Shown here: positions 5,672-37,361 of the stretch, piece after piece
Position numbering within the stretch: position 1 is the first letter of the stretch
Layout: each line of letters opens with the position of its first letter
Assembly (NCBI RefSeq): GCF_016907755.1
Contig: NZ_JAFBCN010000001.1
Span: 496,001-560,000 of the forward strand
Direction: 5' to 3'
DNA from: Cellulosimicrobium cellulans
Lineage (GTDB): Bacteria > Actinomycetota > Actinomycetes > Actinomycetales > Cellulomonadaceae
DNA length: 64,000 bases
The notes under the pieces: model-generated
What the model was told of the DNA's origin: nothing
What the model saw: only the letters and a program-made list of their open reading frames with translations
Database searches by the model: none
Position numbers and translations under genes: made by a program

Positions 5672-6454
5672 CTAGAGGCCCTGCCAGTCCGGCTTGGACG
5701 CGTACGTCTGGCGGTAGTAGTCCCCGAGCTGCAGGCGCGAGGCCGCCGCGTCGTCGACCAGCACCGTCGCGTGCGGGTGCATCTGCATGATCGTCGCGGG
5801 CCACAGCGCCGAGATCGGGCCCTCCACGAGCTGGTGCACCGCCTCCGCCTTGCCCTTGCCCGTCGCCAGCAGCACCAGGTGCCGCGCCGACATGATCGTC
5901 GCGAGCCCCTGCGTCAGGCAGTGCCGCGGCACCCGGTCCACGTCGTCGCCGAAGAACCGCGCGTTGTCCTCACGCGTCTGCGCCGTCAACGTCTTGATCC
6001 GCGTGCGCGACGCCAGCGACGACCCCGGCTCGTTGAACGCGATGTGCCCGTCCGTCCCGATCCCCAGGATCTGCAGGTCCACACCCCCGGCCCCCGCGAT
6101 CGACTCCTCGTACGCCGCGCACGCCGCGACCAGGTCCTCGGCGTTGCCGTCCGGGCCCTGCACCGCGCCCGGGGCGAAGTCCACCCGCGAGGCGATCTCC
6201 GTCTCGATCACGTTCCGGTACCGCTCGGGGTGCTCCGCGGGCAGGCCCACGTACTCGTCGAGCATGAACGCCCGCACGCCCGCGAACGACAACCCGTCCT
6301 CACGGTGACGGCGCGCCAGCTCGTCGTACACCTTCAGCGGCGAGGAACCCGTCGCCAGCCCCAGCACCGCCTCCGGCCGCGACCGCACCACCTCCTCGAT
6401 CGCGTCCGCAGCCAGCACCGCCAACCGCTCCGCAGGAGCGATCACGACCTCCAT
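5672..6454 (-). CDS. nagB: Glucosamine-6-phosphate deaminase
   Basis: Converts glucosamine-6-phosphate to fructose-6-phosphate and ammonia, the last step of amino-sugar and sialic-acid catabolism before glycolysis. The 260-residue product has the usual family length. Seen motifs: GLATGSSP (sugar-phosphate loop), FMLDEYVGL, and GIGTDGHIAFNEPGSSL, which carries the general-base Asp and the catalytic His. The ATG at 6454 shares one base with the stop of the upstream oxidoreductase, so it is the last gene of a four-gene minus-strand operon beginning with the GntR regulator. It would receive product from NanA-NanK-NanE after deacetylation, but nagA is not in this window. Confidence 0.93.
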   Translation of the reverse strand: MEVVIAPAERLAVLAADAIEEVVRSRPEAVLGLATGSSPLKVYDELARRHREDGLSFAGVRAFMLDEYVGLPAEHPERYRNVIETEIASRVDFAPGAVQGPDGNAEDLVAACAAYEESIAGAGGVDLQILGIGTDGHIAFNEPGSSLASRTRIKTLTAQTREDNARFFGDDVDRVPRHCLTQGLATIMSARHLVLLATGKGKAEAVHQLVEGPISALWPATIMQMHPHATVLVDDAAASRLQLGDYYRQTYASKPDWQGL

Positions 6455-7536
6455 CAGACCCTCGCCTCCTCGGGCACCGTCCGGTGCTCCACCGTCACGA
6501 CGTCGCTCGCCTCGACCGAGCGGTACGCCGCGTCGATCACCGCGAGCGTCGCGCGCGCCTCCTCGATGCCGTAGTCCGGCCGCTCGCCGGCCAGGACCGC
6601 CCCGACGACGTGCCGCAGGTACGCCGCGGCGGCGACCTGCCCGGCGTCGGGGGCGAGCGTCGTGCGCCCGTCCGCCCCGTACCGCGCGACGGCGGGCGCG
6701 TCGTCGTCCCCGACCGCGTGGCCGTGCGACCCGAGCAGGCGCACGGACGACGTGGTCGGCGTGCCGCCCGGCGCGAACGGGACGCGGCCGAGCGTGACGG
6801 TCGCGGTGACGCCGCGGTCCAGCCCGAGCGTGACGACCGCCGTGTCCTCGACCCCGGCCTCGCGGTGCGGGTCGAGGAACAGCGCGCCCGTGAACGCGTG
6901 CACCTCGACCGTCCGCAGCCCGGTGAGGTGGTGTACCGCGTCGGCGCAGTAGCCGAGGAAGTTGAGCAGCTCCCCGCCTCCGGAGAGCGTGCGGTCGACC
7001 ACGAGCTCCGGCCGCTCGACCGACGTCGCGAAGTGCGACCCGGAGGCGAAGAACTCCAGGTCGAGGTGGCGCGGCAGGCCCACGTGCCCGGCGTCGACCC
7101 AGGCGCGCAGGCGGCGCAGGGCGGGCGCGTGCGTGCGGTTCACGACGGCGCACGTGCCGCCCGTGCGGGCGGCCACCGCGGCGAGGCGGTCGGCGCCGGC
7201 GAGCGTCGTCGCGACGGGCTTGTCGACGAGCACGTCGAGCCCCGCCTCCAGCAGCCCCGCCGCGAGGCGCGCGTGCCGGGTCGGCTCGGCGCACACGACG
7301 ACGAGGTCGACGGCGGATACCAGGGCCTCCGCGGCCGACGCCACGTCGGCGACCTCGGCGTACGGCAGACCGACGCTCTCGGCGACGGCGCGCGAGTCCT
7401 CGCGCACCCAGCCGGGCGCGTCCGACTCCTCGACGATGCCGACGAGCTCGACGCGGTCGTCCGCGGCGAGGATCCGCAGGTAGTCGGCCGCGTGGCGCAC
7501 CGCCGACGCGAACGCGACGCGCAGGGTCGTCCTCAC
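6454..7536 (-). CDS. Gfo/Idh/MocA-family NAD(P)-dependent oxidoreductase
   Basis: A 360-residue cytoplasmic oxidoreductase with an N-terminal Rossmann domain (starting RVAFASAVRHAADYL, so the usual GxGxxG loop is poorly conserved) and a C-terminal alpha/beta substrate domain. The EKP-type motif appears as VDKPVAT. GTG 7536 overlaps the stop of the next upstream gene by 4 nt, and the stop overlaps nagB. Family members oxidise or epimerise sugars. Known sialic-acid examples are RgNanOx of Ruminococcus gnavus and NanX/YjhC of E. coli, which convert 2,7-anhydro-Neu5Ac to Neu5Ac. A similar role here is inferred from position only. The weak glycine loop leaves cofactor binding less certain than for its neighbour. 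Confidence 0.8.
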   Translation of the reverse strand: MRTTLRVAFASAVRHAADYLRILAADDRVELVGIVEESDAPGWVREDSRAVAESVGLPYAEVADVASAAEALVSAVDLVVVCAEPTRHARLAAGLLEAGLDVLVDKPVATTLAGADRLAAVAARTGGTCAVVNRTHAPALRRLRAWVDAGHVGLPRHLDLEFFASGSHFATSVERPELVVDRTLSGGGELLNFLGYCADAVHHLTGLRTVEVHAFTGALFLDPHREAGVEDTAVVTLGLDRGVTATVTLGRVPFAPGGTPTTSSVRLLGSHGHAVGDDDAPAVARYGADGRTTLAPDAGQVAAAAYLRHVVGAVLAGERPDYGIEEARATLAVIDAAYRSVEASDVVTVEHRTVPEEARV

Positions 7537-28395: not shown

Positions 28396-29244
28396 CTACC
28401 GTCCGGTCGTCGAGAAGTGCTGGTAGTCCACGGGGCTCTCCCAGGCCCCGCCCCACGACCAGCCGGCAGCGGCGAACGCCCGCACCACGACGTCGTCGGG
28501 CAGGATGACGCCGGGTGCGGGCTCGCGCGCGACGAAGGCGGCACCGGCGGGCGGCGCGACCGCCGTGCCGCGGACCCACGGGTTCTCGACGGGATTGACG
28601 TCGATCGCGCGTCCGAAGGAGTGCTCGGACCACCGGTCCGTGCCCGCGACGGGGCGGCAGTTGAAGGCCGACGTGTTGTCCGCCGCCATGCTCGCGTCGT
28701 CGTCCCCGCCGAAGTCGTCGACGAGTCGCATCGACCGGATCGGGTACCCGGCGTCGAACAGCGTGCGGAACACCGTCACCACCCCGTCCGCGACGTCCGC
28801 GTGGACGACGAGCTCGCCCGTCGCGACACCGCCCTCGAACGTGCGGTGGCTCAGCGTCAGGTACCGCAGGTCGGAGAGAGGCACCGGGCAGCCCTCGCGC
28901 CAGGACGAGGGAGTCATGCGCGCCGCGAGGCCGGCGTCGATCCCGGAGACGGTGCTCTCGAAGACGGGCGCCTGCGGGACCGCGGGCGGCGCCGACGCGG
29001 GCACCTTCTGCGGTGCGGGGCCGCCCCGGTCCGGTGCCGCCGCAGCGGGAGCAGGCGCCGCCGGCTCGGGCGGTGCCGAGCGGTCTGACGGCCCGGGGGC
29101 GGGTACGGCCGTGGGCGAGGAGCCGACCGGGGACGTCGGGTTCGCGGCGGGCCCGGGTGAGCAGGCGACGAGCAGGCTCGTGCTCAGCAGCAGCCCGAGC
29201 GTCGCGACGGTGCGCGCGGCGGGGGAACCCGACGACGAGGCCAT
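28396..29244 (-). CDS. M15-type D-Ala-D-Ala carboxypeptidase-like lipoprotein
   Basis: A 282-residue lipoprotein (lipobox LVAC, Cys 28) with a Pro/Ala-rich linker to about residue 95 and a C-terminal M15-type metallopeptidase-like domain. Zinc-ligand motifs are visible: SEHSFGRAIDVNP (His and Asp) and WGGAWESPVDYQHFS (second His, about 275). Such enzymes trim peptidoglycan stem peptides or hydrolyse cell-wall crosslinks. The long linker could span part of the wall. It may be alone on its transcript; the next gene upstream on the strand begins after a gap of about 2.5 genes, and 62 nt separate its start from the VOC gene's stop. Substrate specificity is not readable. Confidence 0.83.
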   Translation of the reverse strand: MASSSGSPAARTVATLGLLLSTSLLVACSPGPAANPTSPVGSSPTAVPAPGPSDRSAPPEPAAPAPAAAAPDRGGPAPQKVPASAPPAVPQAPVFESTVSGIDAGLAARMTPSSWREGCPVPLSDLRYLTLSHRTFEGGVATGELVVHADVADGVVTVFRTLFDAGYPIRSMRLVDDFGGDDDASMAADNTSAFNCRPVAGTDRWSEHSFGRAIDVNPVENPWVRGTAVAPPAGAAFVAREPAPGVILPDDVVVRAFAAAGWSWGGAWESPVDYQHFSTTGR

Positions 29245-29306
29245 GGGGCCAGTCTCCGCCCGGCGTGGGGTGCTGGCTCGCGCTGACCCGGCTCCGCGGC
29301 GTCGGG

Positions 29307-29720
29307 TCAGGCGTGGTCGAGCGGCGGCGAGCTCAGGCAGAACGGGTGGCCCTCGGGGTCGGCGTAGACGCGGAAGAGGTCGTCGGGGTGACCTTCCTCC
29401 TCCGGCGTCCCCGTGAGCGGGCGCGCGCCGCACGCGACGGCGTGCTCGTGCGCCGCGGCGAGGTCGGGCACGTCCAGGTCGACGTGCACCCGCGCGCCGC
29501 CGGGCCACGGCGGGACGTCGGCGTCGGACCGCTGGAACGCGAGGCGCGACGCGCCGCCCGGGATCTGGAGCGACAGCCAGTCGTCGCCAGCCGGGTCCGT
29601 GCTCTCGTGGCCGGGGGTGTACTCCCAGCCGGTAAGGCGACGGTAGAACTCGGCGAGCGCGCGCGGATCCCGCGCGTCGACGGTCGCGTTGCGGAGCCGC
29701 ATCGGCCGTGGGTCGGCCAT
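29307..29720 (-). CDS. VOC-family (glyoxalase/bleomycin-resistance fold) protein
   Basis: A 137-residue single-domain VOC protein with two beta-alpha-beta3 halves: LRNATVDARDPRALAEFYRRLTGWEY at the N-terminus and RVHVDLDVPDLAAAHEHAVACGARPL ... FRVYADPEGHPFCL at the C-terminus. It fits the uncharacterised glyoxalase-like group common in actinobacteria. The usual metal ligands are only partly recognisable, so catalysis is uncertain. It begins 2 nt after the stop of the endonuclease IV gene, so the two are probably co-transcribed by chance or as a stress unit. Confidence 0.82.
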   Translation of the reverse strand: MADPRPMRLRNATVDARDPRALAEFYRRLTGWEYTPGHESTDPAGDDWLSLQIPGGASRLAFQRSDADVPPWPGGARVHVDLDVPDLAAAHEHAVACGARPLTGTPEEEGHPDDLFRVYADPEGHPFCLSSPPLDHA

Positions 29721-29722
29721 GG

Positions 29723-30505
29723 TCAGCCGAGCTGCTCGCGCAGCCACGCGACGTCGACGGGGACCTCCGCGTGCGTCTCGCACACGACCGACGTGCCGGC
29801 AGCGCGCACGACGCCGAGCAGGAGCTCGGGGTCGATCGTGCCGGCCGTGAGGCCGGCGTGACGGTCGGCGCCGGAGCCCGCGGTGTCACGGCTGTTGTTG
29901 AGGTGCACGAGGTCGACGCGGCCGGTGATGGCACGCACGTCCTCGACCGCCGTGGTGAGGTCGATGCCGCCCGCCCACGCGTGGCACGTGTCGAGGCAGA
30001 ACCCGACGTTCTCGGCGCCGTCGGCCTGCTGGATCGCGGCCCACAGGCCCTCGATGCGCTCGAGTCGCCGGGCCATGGAGAAGTCGCCGCCCGCGGTGTT
30101 CTCGACGAAGACGGTCACGTCCGTCTGGAGCGCGTCGATCGCCTTGCGCCAGTTGTCGAACCCCTTCTCCGGGTCCTCCTTCGCGGTGACGTGCCCGCCG
30201 TGGACCACGACGCCCGTCGCGTCGACCGCCGCCGCGCCGTCGACGATCTGCTGGAGCAGCTTGCGGCTCGGGATGCGGATGCGGTTGTTGGGGCTCGCGA
30301 CGTTGATGACGTACGGGGCGTGCACCACGAGCTCGAGGTCCGCCGCCGCGGCGGCGTCCTTCAGGGCCTCCGCGCCGCCCGGGAACGTGAACTCCGGTCC
30401 CTTCCAGGACTGGGGGTCGCCGAGGAAGATCTGGGCGACGTCCGCGCCGATGCTCGCTGCCTGCGCGATGACGTCCGACTGGTCGAGGTGGGCTCCGATC
30501 CGCAT
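29723..30505 (-). CDS. nfo: Endonuclease IV (AP endonuclease)
   Basis: A 260-residue TIM-barrel AP endonuclease that cleaves 5' to abasic sites in base-excision repair. The zinc-ligand motifs appear in order: VVHAPY and VVVHGGH (His), VFVENTAGG (Glu), FCLDTCHAWAGG (Asp, His), VHLNNSRDTAGSGADRH (His, Asp, His) and VVCETHAE (Glu). It is slightly shorter than E. coli Nfo (285). ATG 30505 is the first good start; the upstream in-frame TTG lacks a Shine-Dalgarno. The divergent gene is the GH39 enzyme with its own operator. Confidence 0.93.
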   Translation of the reverse strand: MRIGAHLDQSDVIAQAASIGADVAQIFLGDPQSWKGPEFTFPGGAEALKDAAAAADLELVVHAPYVINVASPNNRIRIPSRKLLQQIVDGAAAVDATGVVVHGGHVTAKEDPEKGFDNWRKAIDALQTDVTVFVENTAGGDFSMARRLERIEGLWAAIQQADGAENVGFCLDTCHAWAGGIDLTTAVEDVRAITGRVDLVHLNNSRDTAGSGADRHAGLTAGTIDPELLLGVVRAAGTSVVCETHAEVPVDVAWLREQLG

Positions 30506-30587
30506 GGGGACCAACCTACGCGGAGCCGCCCACGGGCGCGGAGCGGGCCGCGACCCGGGGTGGGGAGGTGTCGCCGAGCAGAAAATC

Positions 30588-33562: not shown

Positions 33563-33585
33563 GGGCGAGGTCCGGCCGACCGAGG

Positions 33586-34623
33586 TCAGCGGTCCTTCGC
33601 GAGGTCCGTCGGGCGCCGGACAGCGAGGTCCGCGGTCGCGGCGAGGGTGACGACGGCCCAGGTCCCGGCGAGGACCAGGCCCCACAGGACGGGCGTCGTC
33701 GGATCGAGGTACCGGGCGTGGAGCGCGACGGCGGCCAGCGTCGTCGCCGTCGCGGCGACGCCCGCGACGAGAAGGGTCTCGAGCGCGACGAGGACGAGCA
33801 GCGAGCGTGCGGACGTGCCGGAGAGCCGGTACACGGCGAGCTCGCTCGCGCGCAGCCGGTACGTGACGGCGGTGGTGACGGCGCCCAGGAGCCCCAGGAG
33901 CACGGGCAGGAAGCGGCTCGGCCGGTCGAGGAACTCCTGCACCGGGTCGCTCGTCGCCCGCAGCGCCTCGGTGCCGACCACGGCGTTGCCGCTCACGTGC
34001 AGCGAGGCGATCTGGGTCGCGGCGACGTCGTCGAGGGCCACGAGGGGGTCGAGCACGACGACGCAGCGCTCGACCTGGGCGTCGTCGGGCCGGAGGGGCA
34101 CCGTCAGGGAACGGCCCGTCCCGACCCCCTCGCGCAGGGCCGGGGTCCGCGCGGAGTCGAGCGCCTCGTCGCCGACGAGCACGCGCTGGTCCGCGGGCCC
34201 GGTCCGGTCGAGCAGGCCCGCGCCGACGAGGGCGTCGACGTCGGCGAGCCCGGGGACGAGGGCGGTCGACGCACGCTGCACGGGGACGTCCGGCCCGACG
34301 GGCACGACGAGCGCGCTGCCGCCCGGGACGACCGCTCCCGCGGCCTCGACCCCCGGCGCTCCCGCGAGCGCCTCGCACGACGCGCGTGAGACGAGGGCGG
34401 GCTGGTCGGGGTTCGCCTGCACGTAGCTGACGACGCCGCGTCCGCGCTCGGCGAGGTCGTCCAGCTCGTCCTGGAGCGACGTGGTCTCGAGCGCGACGAA
34501 GGCCGCGGTGCCCGACCCGAGGACGACCGCCAGCGCGACCACGGGAAGCAGCCGGGCGGAGCGGCCGACGGTGTTGCGCAGGGCCTCGCGCGCGAGGTCG
34601 GCGACGCGCCAGCCGTCACGCAC
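33586..34623 (-). CDS. FtsX/MacB-like ABC permease of the secreted-peptide cassette
   Basis: A 345-residue membrane protein with the topology of FtsX/MacB permeases: one N-terminal helix (LLPVVALAVVLGSGTAAFVAL), an extracytoplasmic domain of about 190 residues, and three C-terminal helices (about 237-330). It contains two extracellular cysteines (SRASCEAL and VERCVVVL). Such permeases do not move substrate through a channel; they transmit ATP-driven motion to periplasmic or extracytoplasmic partners. GTG 34623 overlaps the ATPase gene by 8 nt. It is the last gene of the five-gene minus-strand cassette. Confidence 0.75.
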   Translation of the reverse strand: MRDGWRVADLAREALRNTVGRSARLLPVVALAVVLGSGTAAFVALETTSLQDELDDLAERGRGVVSYVQANPDQPALVSRASCEALAGAPGVEAAGAVVPGGSALVVPVGPDVPVQRASTALVPGLADVDALVGAGLLDRTGPADQRVLVGDEALDSARTPALREGVGTGRSLTVPLRPDDAQVERCVVVLDPLVALDDVAATQIASLHVSGNAVVGTEALRATSDPVQEFLDRPSRFLPVLLGLLGAVTTAVTYRLRASELAVYRLSGTSARSLLVLVALETLLVAGVAATATTLAAVALHARYLDPTTPVLWGLVLAGTWAVVTLAATADLAVRRPTDLAKDR

Positions 34624-35251
34624 GGACGACCGCCTGGGGCCGCAGCGGGACCGTCGCGTCGGCGGCGGCGACGAGCGTGGGGTCGTGGGTCGCGACGACG
34701 ATCGTCGCGTGCGACACGAGTGCGGCGAGGATCCGGGCCACGAGCTCGGTGTTGGCGGCGTCGAGGTTCGCCGACGGCTCGTCGGCGAGGATGAGCTCCT
34801 TGCCCGACGCGAGGGCGCGCGCGAGCGCGACCCGTTGGAGCTCGCCGCCGGACAGGCGCCGGGCCTGGTCGCCCTCCCGGTCCGCGAGCCCGACCTGGTC
34901 GAGCGCGGCGCGCGCGGTCTCCCGGGCCTCTCGTCGGGGGCGGCCCGCCGCGAGCGGCGCGACGAGGACGTTGTCGAGGACCGAGCGGCGCCCCAGCGCG
35001 TTGGAGCCCTGGGGTACCCAGGCGACGACGCCGGGCGAGGGCGGCCTGGCCGACCCGTCGGGTCCGTGGAGCTCGATGCGGCCCGTCGCGAGTCGTTGGT
35101 ACCCCGCGACAGCGGCGAGCAGCGACGACTTGCCGCTCCCCGAAGGTCCGACGAGCGCGGTGACGCGCGCGGGCTCGAACGTCGCGGTCAGCCCGGAGAA
35201 CACCGGGACGGGCCCGAACGCGATGGCGGCGTCGATCACGTCCACGCGCAC
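34616..35251 (-). CDS. ABC ATPase of the secreted-peptide cassette (LolD/MacB type)
   Basis: A compact 211-residue ATPase, the length of LolD/MacB nucleotide-binding domains. It has Walker A GPSGSGKSS, signature LSGGELQR, Walker B LILADEPSANLD and H-loop VVATHD. The Q-loop reads WVPQGSNALG. It starts 4 nt after the stop of the adaptor gene and overlaps the permease gene, so subunit stoichiometry is set by coupling. It presumably dimerises under two copies of the FtsX-like permease. Confidence 0.9.
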   Translation of the reverse strand: MRVDVIDAAIAFGPVPVFSGLTATFEPARVTALVGPSGSGKSSLLAAVAGYQRLATGRIELHGPDGSARPPSPGVVAWVPQGSNALGRRSVLDNVLVAPLAAGRPRREARETARAALDQVGLADREGDQARRLSGGELQRVALARALASGKELILADEPSANLDAANTELVARILAALVSHATIVVATHDPTLVAAADATVPLRPQAVVRA

Positions 35252-35255
35252 GCCG

Positions 35256-36353
35256 CTACCCGCACCCTGACGTACCGGTGGCCTGCGTCGCGTCGCGCAG
35301 CACGCGGGAGCCGACGAGGTCGGCGTCGACGAGCACCGTGGCGAGCTCGTTCCCGGGTTCCGCGACCTCGAGCCGGCGGGGCTGCGCCGCGGCCGTGGAG
35401 CCGTCGCTCAACAGGACGCACGTCGCGCCGTCGTGGTCCACGCGCACGGCCGTCGAGGGGACGGCGCCGCGCTCCGCCGGGTCCTGGAGCGCGAGGATCG
35501 CCCCCCGGTAGCGCACCGTCGACGTCGACTCGTCGGCGATCCGCTCGAGCGTGCCCGCGGCCGCGGCCTCCTCGAGCGCCGCCACGACGCCGTCCAGCTC
35601 GGCGCCCTGGGGCGACGCGCTCGACATCGGTACCTCGACCTCGCCCAGGCGCAGCACGACCGGCTCCCGAGCGAGCCGGCCGAGACCGCCGCCCTCGGCG
35701 ATCGAGGCCACGGTCAGCGCTTCCACGGGCTGCGAGCCCTCCAGCACCGCGTCGCCCGCCTCGACCCGGTCCCCCAGGCCGACGAGCGGACCGGTGACCG
35801 CCGGCACCGAGTCGTCGACCCGCACGACGTACGAGAGGCGGAACTCCCCGTCCCGGGGAACCCCGAGGCGCTCCTGGAGCGCCCGGACCGCCTCGCGCGT
35901 CGCCGGGCCGAAGCGGTCGTCGACGCCGACCGCGTCCAGGTACCCGAGCGACACGAGGTAGTCCCCGAGCGCGCGCACGTCCGTCCCGCGGTCACCCAGG
36001 CGCAGGTCGCGCCACAGAGGGCTGCCGCGGTACGCGAGCACGTCGACGCCGTCGACGGCGAACAGCGCCTGCCCGGCCTCGACGGGACCCGCCTCGGTGA
36101 GCGCGGTGACGACTCCCCCCGCGGGAGCGCGGACCTCGGGAGCCACGGCGCGCACCGTCGCGACCTCGACCGCGGTCCGTCCGTCGTCGGAACGGGCGCC
36201 GACCTCGACGACCGTCGGCGCCGGCACCGCGACGCTCCGCTCCTCCGCGGCGTCGACGAGCGGGAACGCCACGGCGACCGCGACCACGGGCACGGCCCAC
36301 AGCGCCACCAACGGCGCCAAGCGCACCCAGCCACGGGACCGGTCGCTCCTCAC
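35256..36353 (-). CDS. MacA/HlyD-like adaptor with an inserted peptidoglycan-binding domain
   Basis: A 365-residue protein: one N-terminal membrane helix (APLVALWAVPVVAVAVAFPLV), a half lipoyl-like segment (VRAPAGGVVTALTEAGPVEAGQALFAVDG), a PG_binding_1 domain (about 115-165; LRLGDRGTDVRALGDYLVSLGYL and FGPATREAVRALQERLGV), then a beta-rich region completing an adaptor-like fold. Membrane-fusion-type adaptors with a wall-binding insert occur in Gram-positive ABC systems related to MacAB and YknXYZ. GTG 36353 overlaps the lipoprotein stop (GTGA). It would connect the ABC complex to the cell wall. Confidence 0.8.
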   Translation of the reverse strand: MRSDRSRGWVRLAPLVALWAVPVVAVAVAFPLVDAAEERSVAVPAPTVVEVGARSDDGRTAVEVATVRAVAPEVRAPAGGVVTALTEAGPVEAGQALFAVDGVDVLAYRGSPLWRDLRLGDRGTDVRALGDYLVSLGYLDAVGVDDRFGPATREAVRALQERLGVPRDGEFRLSYVVRVDDSVPAVTGPLVGLGDRVEAGDAVLEGSQPVEALTVASIAEGGGLGRLAREPVVLRLGEVEVPMSSASPQGAELDGVVAALEEAAAAGTLERIADESTSTVRYRGAILALQDPAERGAVPSTAVRVDHDGATCVLLSDGSTAAAQPRRLEVAEPGNELATVLVDADLVGSRVLRDATQATGTSGCG

Positions 36354-36865
36354 AGGGCGTCGTACTCCGCGACGCACGCCGCCTCGTCCAGCCCGGCACC
36401 GGTCACGGCGCGCTGCGCCTCCGCGAGCGTCGACGGGACGCCCAGCCCACGCTCCTGCAGGCAGTACCTCAGGGCGTCCAGCAGCGACGTCTCCTCCTGG
36501 TTCGAGGTCTGCCAGACGACGTCGACGAACCTGAGGTCACGGTCGTAGCAGGTCTTCTCGACGCCGGAGTCGACCGCCTCGGCCGGGATCCCGCCCTGCC
36601 ACACCACCCCGACGAGCTCGACGTCCCGCAGCTCGTAACCCTCAGCGCGCAGACACGCCCGAAATCTCTCGAACCCCGCCGTGTACTCGTCCTGGGACAC
36701 CTCGCCGTCCATCAGCGCCTCGCGCTGCTCCGGACCAGCCGAGGAGAGGTCCTCGTCGGCGTTGATCGCGTCGAAGTGCGGGATGTCGTCGGAGCCGGTG
36801 CCGCCGCAACCTGACACCAGCAGCGCTCCCAGGAGCGCGCCGGCGCGACGGGACGAGCGTGCCAT
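36350..36865 (-). CDS. Small cysteine-rich lipoprotein of the secreted-peptide cassette
   Basis: A 171-residue lipoprotein with lipobox VSGC (Cys 20). The mature part contains four more cysteines (FRACLRAEG, KTCYDRDL, LRYCLQERG, EAACVAEYD), enough for two disulfides, and is mainly helical and acidic. I do not recognise a family. ATG 36865 shares its A with the stop of the peptide gene, so it is translationally coupled to it. The position right after the secreted protein suggests an immunity or accessory lipoprotein, by analogy with bacteriocin loci; this is inference. Confidence 0.75.
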   Translation of the reverse strand: MARSSRRAGALLGALLVSGCGGTGSDDIPHFDAINADEDLSSAGPEQREALMDGEVSQDEYTAGFERFRACLRAEGYELRDVELVGVVWQGGIPAEAVDSGVEKTCYDRDLRFVDVVWQTSNQEETSLLDALRYCLQERGLGVPSTLAEAQRAVTGAGLDEAACVAEYDAL

Positions 36866-37209
36866 CACACGTTGGTCGTGAACACGCCGGTACCGGCACC
36901 GCTGTGCTGGGCCTGGGTGAAGTTCGTGCCGGTCCGCTTGGCGATCGCGTTGGATCCGCTCTTGTAGGTCCAGGTCGTCCACGACGCGCCGCCCATGTGG
37001 GCGTAGTAGCCCCGGACGCCGACCGTGCCGCAGTTGCCGCTCGCTGCGGACTGCACGGTCGACGAGTTCGACGCCCCGAAGACCTCGCCACCTGTGCTGC
37101 ACAGCCGTGACGCCAGTCCGGCGGACGCGGGGGCCGCCGTCGAGACCATCAGCCCCACCGAGACCGCCACCGCAAGGAGCGCCGAGGCCCCCTTCGTTCC
37201 CTTGCGCAT
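36865..37209 (-). CDS. Small secreted two-cysteine protein, bacteriocin-like
   Basis: A 114-residue protein with a clear Sec signal peptide (1-30, ending APASA) and an 84-residue mature part rich in Gly, Ser, Thr and Asn. It has exactly two cysteines (mature positions 7 and 30), probably one disulfide, and an aromatic segment YYAHMGGASWTTWTYKSG. The layout (signal peptide, small polar product, ABC genes downstream) recalls lactococcin-972-type loci, but the diagnostic lactococcin-972 residues are not evident, so I leave it unassigned. ATG 37209 or GTG 37212 may be used; both follow GAGGGG. The gene and its 5' region are less GC-rich than the neighbours. It heads the five-gene cassette. Confidence 0.75.
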   Translation of the reverse strand: MRKGTKGASALLAVAVSVGLMVSTAAPASAGLASRLCSTGGEVFGASNSSTVQSAASGNCGTVGVRGYYAHMGGASWTTWTYKSGSNAIAKRTGTNFTQAQHSGAGTGVFTTNV

Positions 37210-37361
37210 CACTGTTTCCCCTCAACATTCGTCGTCGAACATCGGACAGTGGTGCTCAAGGTAGGGGCACCGCCGATATTGCGCAACCCCGGAAAACAAA
37301 ACACCGGATCCGGATGTGGCGCGCGGCTCCGCAGGTCAGAGCCATCGTGGCCGCCGCCGCG

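Follow-up and report, generated by a model that had tools for sequence, protein, structure and literature searches.

The five-gene cassette and its products

Positions 33586-37209 of the window (the whole 64,000-nt stretch of DNA that was analysed, from the soil actinobacterium Cellulosimicrobium cellulans) were found to hold five genes on the minus strand. Reading of the window's open reading frames gives the order peptide, lipoprotein, adaptor, ABC ATPase and permease, joined by overlaps or a 4-nt gap, and all five reading frames of the operon described in the original prediction were confirmed. The features are as follows.

36865..37209, minus strand: two-Cys Sec-exported protein, in the slot of the predicted bacteriocin (coding 37209-36868, stop 36867-36865)
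36350..36865, minus strand: lipoprotein of 171 aa, candidate immunity protein (lipobox Cys20 and four invariant Cys)
35256..36353, minus strand: MacA/HlyD-like adaptor (N-terminal anchor, lipoyl domain split by PG_binding_1)
34616..35251, minus strand: ABC ATPase of MacB/LolD size, 211 aa (ABC_tran match)
33586..34623, minus strand: FtsX/MacB-type permease, 345 aa (large ectodomain, weak FtsX match)
37258..37286, minus strand: probable promoter TTGCGC-N17-TACCTT, read from an alignment and conserved in five Cellulosimicrobium genomes
33563..37360, no strand assigned: the whole cassette as a presence/absence unit, flanked by a ROK-family gene and an enolase-superfamily gene (neighbours in genome G065)

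The peptide gene starts at an ATG, and a ribosome-binding site (GAGGGG) about 9 nt ahead of it is kept in the alignment of five Cellulosimicrobium genomes. The 114-aa product is rich in Ser, Thr and Gly and carries a Sec signal with a signal peptidase I site of the AxA|G type. Cleavage after residue 30 (ASA|G) gives a mature part of 84 residues with two cysteines, and C37 and C60 are invariant in the peptide alignment (A1). No double-glycine leader was seen on reading the window peptide. Scans of Pfam and NCBIfam returned no family for it (P0001) or for its 8 aligned relatives, and all nine were unmatched by the lactococcin 972 (Lcn972) families PF09683 and TIGR01653. A profile-profile comparison with Lcn972 gave a probability of 0.2%, in other words no detectable homology. 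Matches of the peptide profile to solved structures were at chance level (an antibody framework, signal-peptide-like stretches), and AlphaFold2 predicted no fold for the mature peptide of the window and two C. cellulans homologues (mean pLDDT 34).

The lipoprotein gene overlaps the peptide gene by 1 nt (TGATG). Its product has the lipobox VSGC with Cys20 and further invariant cysteines at 71, 106, 135 and 164. The window lipoprotein matched no Pfam or NCBIfam family, the LanI families of both databases included, and the aligned lipoproteins matched no Pfam family. The view that peptide and lipoprotein stand outside known families has therefore held for the window copies in both databases. Solved-structure matches of the lipoprotein profile were chance only.

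The adaptor gene starts at a GTG, overlaps the lipoprotein gene by 4 nt and encodes an N-terminal anchor at residues 15-33. A PG_binding_1 domain at residues 122-170 (42.7 bits against a cut-off of 23) is flanked by two lipoyl halves at about 65-108 and 183-218, which were recognised by a profile search against solved structures. This domain is the insertion between the lipoyl halves, and no insertion of hairpin length is present in the adaptor sequence. In Gram-negative adaptors this place is taken by the TolC-reaching hairpin, so the domain probably anchors the pump to the cell wall. The AlphaFold2 model of the adaptor (window and two C. cellulans homologues) had a mean pLDDT of 31 and was not used.

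The ATPase gene follows the adaptor gene after 4 nt. Its product matches ABC_tran (E 8.5e-26) and scores 112 bits against TIGR03608, far under that family's cut-off of 254.85. The permease gene overlaps the ATPase gene by 8 nt. Its product has three clear transmembrane segments by hydropathy, against four in MacAB/YknXYZ-type permeases, and a large ectodomain, and matched no NCBIfam family. The FtsX match (PF02687) is below threshold in the window permease (E 0.024), and 8 of 12 homologues match, the best at 3.4e-4. Cys83 and Cys187 of the ectodomain are invariant in 12/12 aligned permeases, and the adaptor has an invariant Cys312; disulfide chemistry beyond the peptide may matter. Besides the peptide, the unit holds only the lipoprotein and the ABC genes, with no modification enzyme, sensor kinase or regulator in it.

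Distribution, loss and exchange

The permease was searched alone, independently of the peptide, in genome samples of the family, order and class; these are species-level draws, so that frequencies are approximate. Strong scores were obtained in 12/200 family genomes and 7/396 genomes of the order sample, and the class sample added one genome from another order. The cassette is rare and patchy, and was found in five families. A search of plasmids gave no permease match, and hence no mobile carrier, and viral contigs searched with the permease alignment gave none either. The peptide alignment held no stretch conserved enough for scanning viral contigs.

These searches yielded 17 permease loci, of which 16 could be assessed, G062 being cut by a contig end. 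An absence of peptide and lipoprotein beside the trio of adaptor, ATPase and permease, which would have spoken against the original prediction, was not what these loci showed. The lipoprotein adjoins the permease at all 16 loci (in G045 as three weakly matching downstream copies), and the peptide is intact at 12 (window, G106, G129, G046, G004, G019, G095, G436 twice, G321, G466 and G636). At the other four it is frameshifted, deleted in frame or absent, a pattern expected of bacteriocin loci. The HMMs were built within the family, so the five loci found by permease outside it (G436 twice, G321, G466, G636) form an independent test, and all five gave peptide and lipoprotein matches, with peptide E-values of 2e-10 to 7e-17 and 4e-6 in G636. 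Only matches based on A1 are independent in this sense, because the A8 profile contains several of the loci that it labels. Weak A1 matches in L007, L009, L011-L014 and L016 were rejected as out-of-context noise.

Outside Cellulosimicrobium, most peptides share 20-33% identity with that of the window (one in G436, 42%), but they retain the pattern C...C[GS]xxxVRxxY...H. In G095, a tandem pair of diverged two-Cys peptides (L043:6759-7319 and 6363-6734) precedes one lipoprotein. Several distant cassettes lack a recognisable peptide. The gene-neighbourhood count bears out a dedicated system, since peptide, lipoprotein and ABC trio are conserved together in distantly related genomes. The recovery of peptide and lipoprotein at 5/5 out-of-family loci, the conserved promoter and ribosome-binding site, and purifying selection on the peptide argue that the cassette is not a product of chance.

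In G088 and G049 the peptide has been deleted in frame, with 300 of 348 nt gone (upstream in-frame GTG to stop). The two scars are identical: 15 codons are left, and the lipoprotein gene is still joined through TGATG. Between these genomes dN/dS is 0.26 for the lipoprotein, 0.25 for the adaptor, 0.19 for the ATPase and 0.21 for the permease; the four remaining genes are still under purifying selection. G029 has a frameshifted peptide and retains three lipoproteins.

What does the ABC trio do? One model is that it secretes or matures the small protein in the manner of MacAB, with the lipoprotein as a chaperone. The strict operon and the MacA-like adaptor would suit such an exporter, MacAB of Gram-negatives is described as implicated in the secretion of enterotoxin (PMC4887032), and NCBIfam names the related Lcn972 ATPase family (TIGR03608) a putative bacteriocin exporter. 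However, the signal of the peptide is of the Sec type, complete with its AxA site, and a double-glycine leader is absent; Lcn972-type peptides are described as thought to be secreted by Sec (PMC11796350), and the two genomes with a deleted peptide maintain the trio under purifying selection. Together these points make the exporter model improbable. Given the Sec signal, the trio more likely serves self-protection (or release from the wall), and immunity accounts better than export for the fact that lipoprotein and trio are kept once the peptide has been lost. Of the earlier proposal of peptide export or immunity by an ABC system, self-protection by trio and lipoprotein is thus the favoured half and export the weaker one.

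Comparison of the window with G106 gave a dS of 0.92 for the mature peptide, 0.28 for its signal, 0.32 for the lipoprotein, 0.06 for the adaptor, 0.13 for the ATPase and 0.18 for the permease. A dip in identity to ~72-75% spans the peptide and eases through the 5' end of the lipoprotein gene, and the adaptor is 95-99% identical. The peptide dN/dS is about 0.21, indicating purifying selection; no positive selection on the peptide was seen, dN/dS being below 1 everywhere. High divergence confined to this dip points to allele replacement by recombination, with the peptide itself constrained. The mature lipoprotein domain is less diverged than the peptide in this pair, and no matched co-evolution of the two was seen.

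The unit can also be missing as a whole. In G065 the ROK-family and enolase-superfamily genes lie ~20 nt apart and the cassette alone is missing, and the flanking genes are rearranged in G106 and G129. A Cellulosimicrobium genome otherwise without the cassette (G112) has short ATPase and permease fragments at about 5477-5644 of L046 (G112:C32). These are a decayed copy in the same neighbourhood, adjoining sequence that matches 29229-30534 of the window. A tree of ATPases places the window beside loci from other families and another order, in a supported clade (98/96) that excludes several loci of the window's own family, a pattern suggestive of horizontal transfer.

Sister cassettes and the lactococcin-972 link

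A search with the lipoprotein profile showed that the window genome holds two further homologous cassettes. One (L097, C1:4653000-4667000) contains homologues of the lipoprotein (A2, 3.8e-13), adaptor (A4, 1.1e-26), ATPase (A5, 7.7e-41) and permease (A3, 2.6e-13), and the small Sec protein in its peptide slot is a Lactococcin_972 (PF09683, E 3.8e-9, 37.4 bits against a cut-off of 22). The link to lactococcin-972 loci suggested in the original prediction is therefore real at the level of the cassette, for a homologous one elsewhere in this genome encodes a PF09683 bacteriocin; the window peptide itself is no detectable homologue of Lcn972. In the other (L098, C1:1281000-1292000) the same slot is occupied by an unclassified peptide without cysteine (YYTLHAASDY...). 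This second unclassified family of secreted peptides (mature AGYYTLHAASDY..., no Cys) was located as follows.

L098:6488-6778, minus strand
L108:4915-5202, plus strand
L151:5535-5726, minus strand

At all three loci the peptide is followed by a lipoprotein, a PG-binding adaptor and the ABC genes, and a second small lipoprotein occurs at L098 and L108. A PF09683 search of the 200 family genomes gave 26 matches, of which 9 have lipoprotein and adaptor directly behind them, namely L097 and eight Lcn972 genes in relatives. The adaptors of Lcn972- and YY-linked cassettes can be aligned over their whole length. Both YY-linked adaptors match PG_binding_1 clearly (2/2); among four Lcn972-linked ones, two fall just under the cut-off and those of L101 and L141 are not recognised there by Pfam. 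In the ATPase tree a single clade (100/100) unites the Lcn972- and YY-bearing cassettes, with two-Cys cassettes making up the remainder. A third lactococcin-972-type peptide of the window genome, of the C-terminal-Cys kind (G000:C1:871900-872082; L114, L143), has no adjoining lipoprotein or PG adaptor, and an ABC ATPase lies ~2.2 kb downstream. Taken as a whole, the five-gene unit is conserved and mobile: its secreted peptide can be exchanged, and its constant genes are homologous to those that accompany true Lcn972 peptides.

Several loci carry the lipoprotein in two or three copies. At L107 (G195:C205:1-8000), three lipoprotein paralogues alternate with small Sec proteins of 3-4 Cys each (1096-1458, 2188-2463) and are followed by one adaptor-ABC set, which looks like an expanded peptide/immunity array. 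Several lipoproteins per trio, and the persistence of both when the peptide is gone, would also be compatible with an envelope-stress or detoxification transporter that expels foreign peptides, the small protein being a secreted decoy, sensor or signal. That role is unlikely, though, as the unit has no sensor kinase or regulator, and a conserved sensor would not be expected to diversify, exchange alleles or give up its slot to true Lcn972 peptides.

Could the small protein instead be a harmless cell-wall or aggregation protein that its neighbours place in the wall? It is secreted, small and Ser/Thr/Gly-rich, and the adaptor has a peptidoglycan-binding domain. The patchy distribution, the empty site, recurrent loss with the partners kept and the replacement of the peptide by bacteriocins in its slot leave such a function very improbable.

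A probable bacteriocin-immunity set and its possible mechanism

The cassette probably constitutes a bacteriocin-immunity set, that is, a Sec-secreted predicted bacteriocin with dedicated surface immunity. Support for this reading comes from several directions: Lcn972 in the same slot of homologous cassettes (L097 and the 9/26 family matches), co-conservation of peptide and lipoprotein with the trio in five families, a peptide that is hypervariable yet constrained, its loss with partners retained in G088, G049 and G029 as in streptococcin B, lipoprotein amplification, the discrete, patchy and mobile nature of the unit, whose site is empty in G065, and the likeness to the nisin plan (NisI and NisFEG) and to YknWXYZ protection from SDP. 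Against it count the lack of detectable Lcn972 homology, of a predictable fold, of a direct sign of positive selection and of matched peptide-lipoprotein co-evolution, as well as the distant cassettes without a recognisable peptide.

Lcn972 loci (PF09683/TIGR01653; streptococcin B scbABC) likewise begin with a gene for a small Sec protein, followed by a MacB/LolD-like ATPase and membrane proteins; Brevibacterium Lcn972 operons encode two membrane proteins and an ATPase (PMC5719810). As in those loci, the window peptide has a Sec signal and no double-glycine leader, modification enzymes are absent, and peptides are naturally deleted with partners kept. About 25% of pneumococci have such a deletion in their Lcn972-type streptococcin B locus and no functional peptide, and retain the predicted immunity and transporter genes (PMC11796350). 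Unlike in Lcn972 loci, the window peptide has two conserved cysteines without detectable sequence homology, it is accompanied by a lipoprotein, a PG-binding adaptor and a permease of 345 aa, and neither an ATPase at TIGR03608 level nor a large integral-membrane immunity protein matched by NCBIfam is present.

Nisin immunity consists of a lipoprotein, NisI, which binds nisin, and the ABC transporter NisFEG (PMC8538875). The window cassette also encodes a surface lipoprotein with an ABC transporter and a peptide, so that LanI and LanFEG (NisI/NisFEG, SpaI/SpaFEG) offer a functional analogy of two-layer self-protection. It differs from them in lacking lanthionine machinery and a LanI family match, and in having an ABC system apparently of MacB/FtsX type with an adaptor. 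In that respect it would resemble MacAB and YknWXYZ of Bacillus, which combine an adaptor, a separate ATPase and an FtsX/MacB-type permease. YknWXYZ shields Bacillus, a monoderm, from the secreted disulfide-bonded toxin SDP (PMC4887032). In contrast to both, the lipoyl domain of the window adaptor is interrupted by PG_binding_1 instead of an alpha-hairpin, the operon has a dedicated peptide and lipoprotein, and the permease matches PF02687 weakly.

How might the set work? The small protein would leave through Sec, be cut after ASA and probably close one disulfide. It may then act on the envelope of close relatives; by analogy with Lcn972, its target could be lipid II or lie elsewhere in the wall or membrane. 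As a first layer of protection, the surface lipoprotein would capture the peptide ahead of its target, as NisI does with nisin. As a second, the ABC trio would lift the peptide off the membrane surface, in line with the protection from SDP that YknWXYZ gives Bacillus, and pass it outwards from a pump probably held at the wall by the PG-binding domain. The cassette would then be a platform with an exchangeable peptide gene, and two-Cys, lactococcin-972 and 'YYTLH' peptides share one slot.

A broader model, to which we give slightly less than an even chance, is that of an actinobacterial wall-anchored immunity platform: one module of lipoprotein, PG-binding adaptor and MacB-type ABC would serve at least three unrelated families of Sec-secreted peptides (two-Cys, lactococcin 972 and YYTLH), with alleles exchanged and the wall-docked pump constant, and with the PG-binding domain in place of the TolC-reaching hairpin making a tripartite pump that is trans-wall and not trans-outer-membrane. 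Two of these families, two-Cys and YYTLH, are undescribed in Pfam and NCBIfam; statements of this kind cover those databases and open-access papers.

According to a 2024 paper, no lactococcin 972 locus had yet had the function of its immunity and transporter genes verified (PMC11796350). The cassette offers a system for testing what the ABC genes of these loci do, and because one genus includes natural variants that bear the cassette without its peptide and others that lack the cassette, the immunity prediction is directly testable. If correct, the bacteriocin-immunity reading would bring to light three families unnamed by Pfam or NCBIfam, two of bacteriocin-like peptides and one of immunity lipoproteins, and an adaptor binding peptidoglycan in place of TolC would show how a tripartite-like pump can be built in a single-membrane cell.
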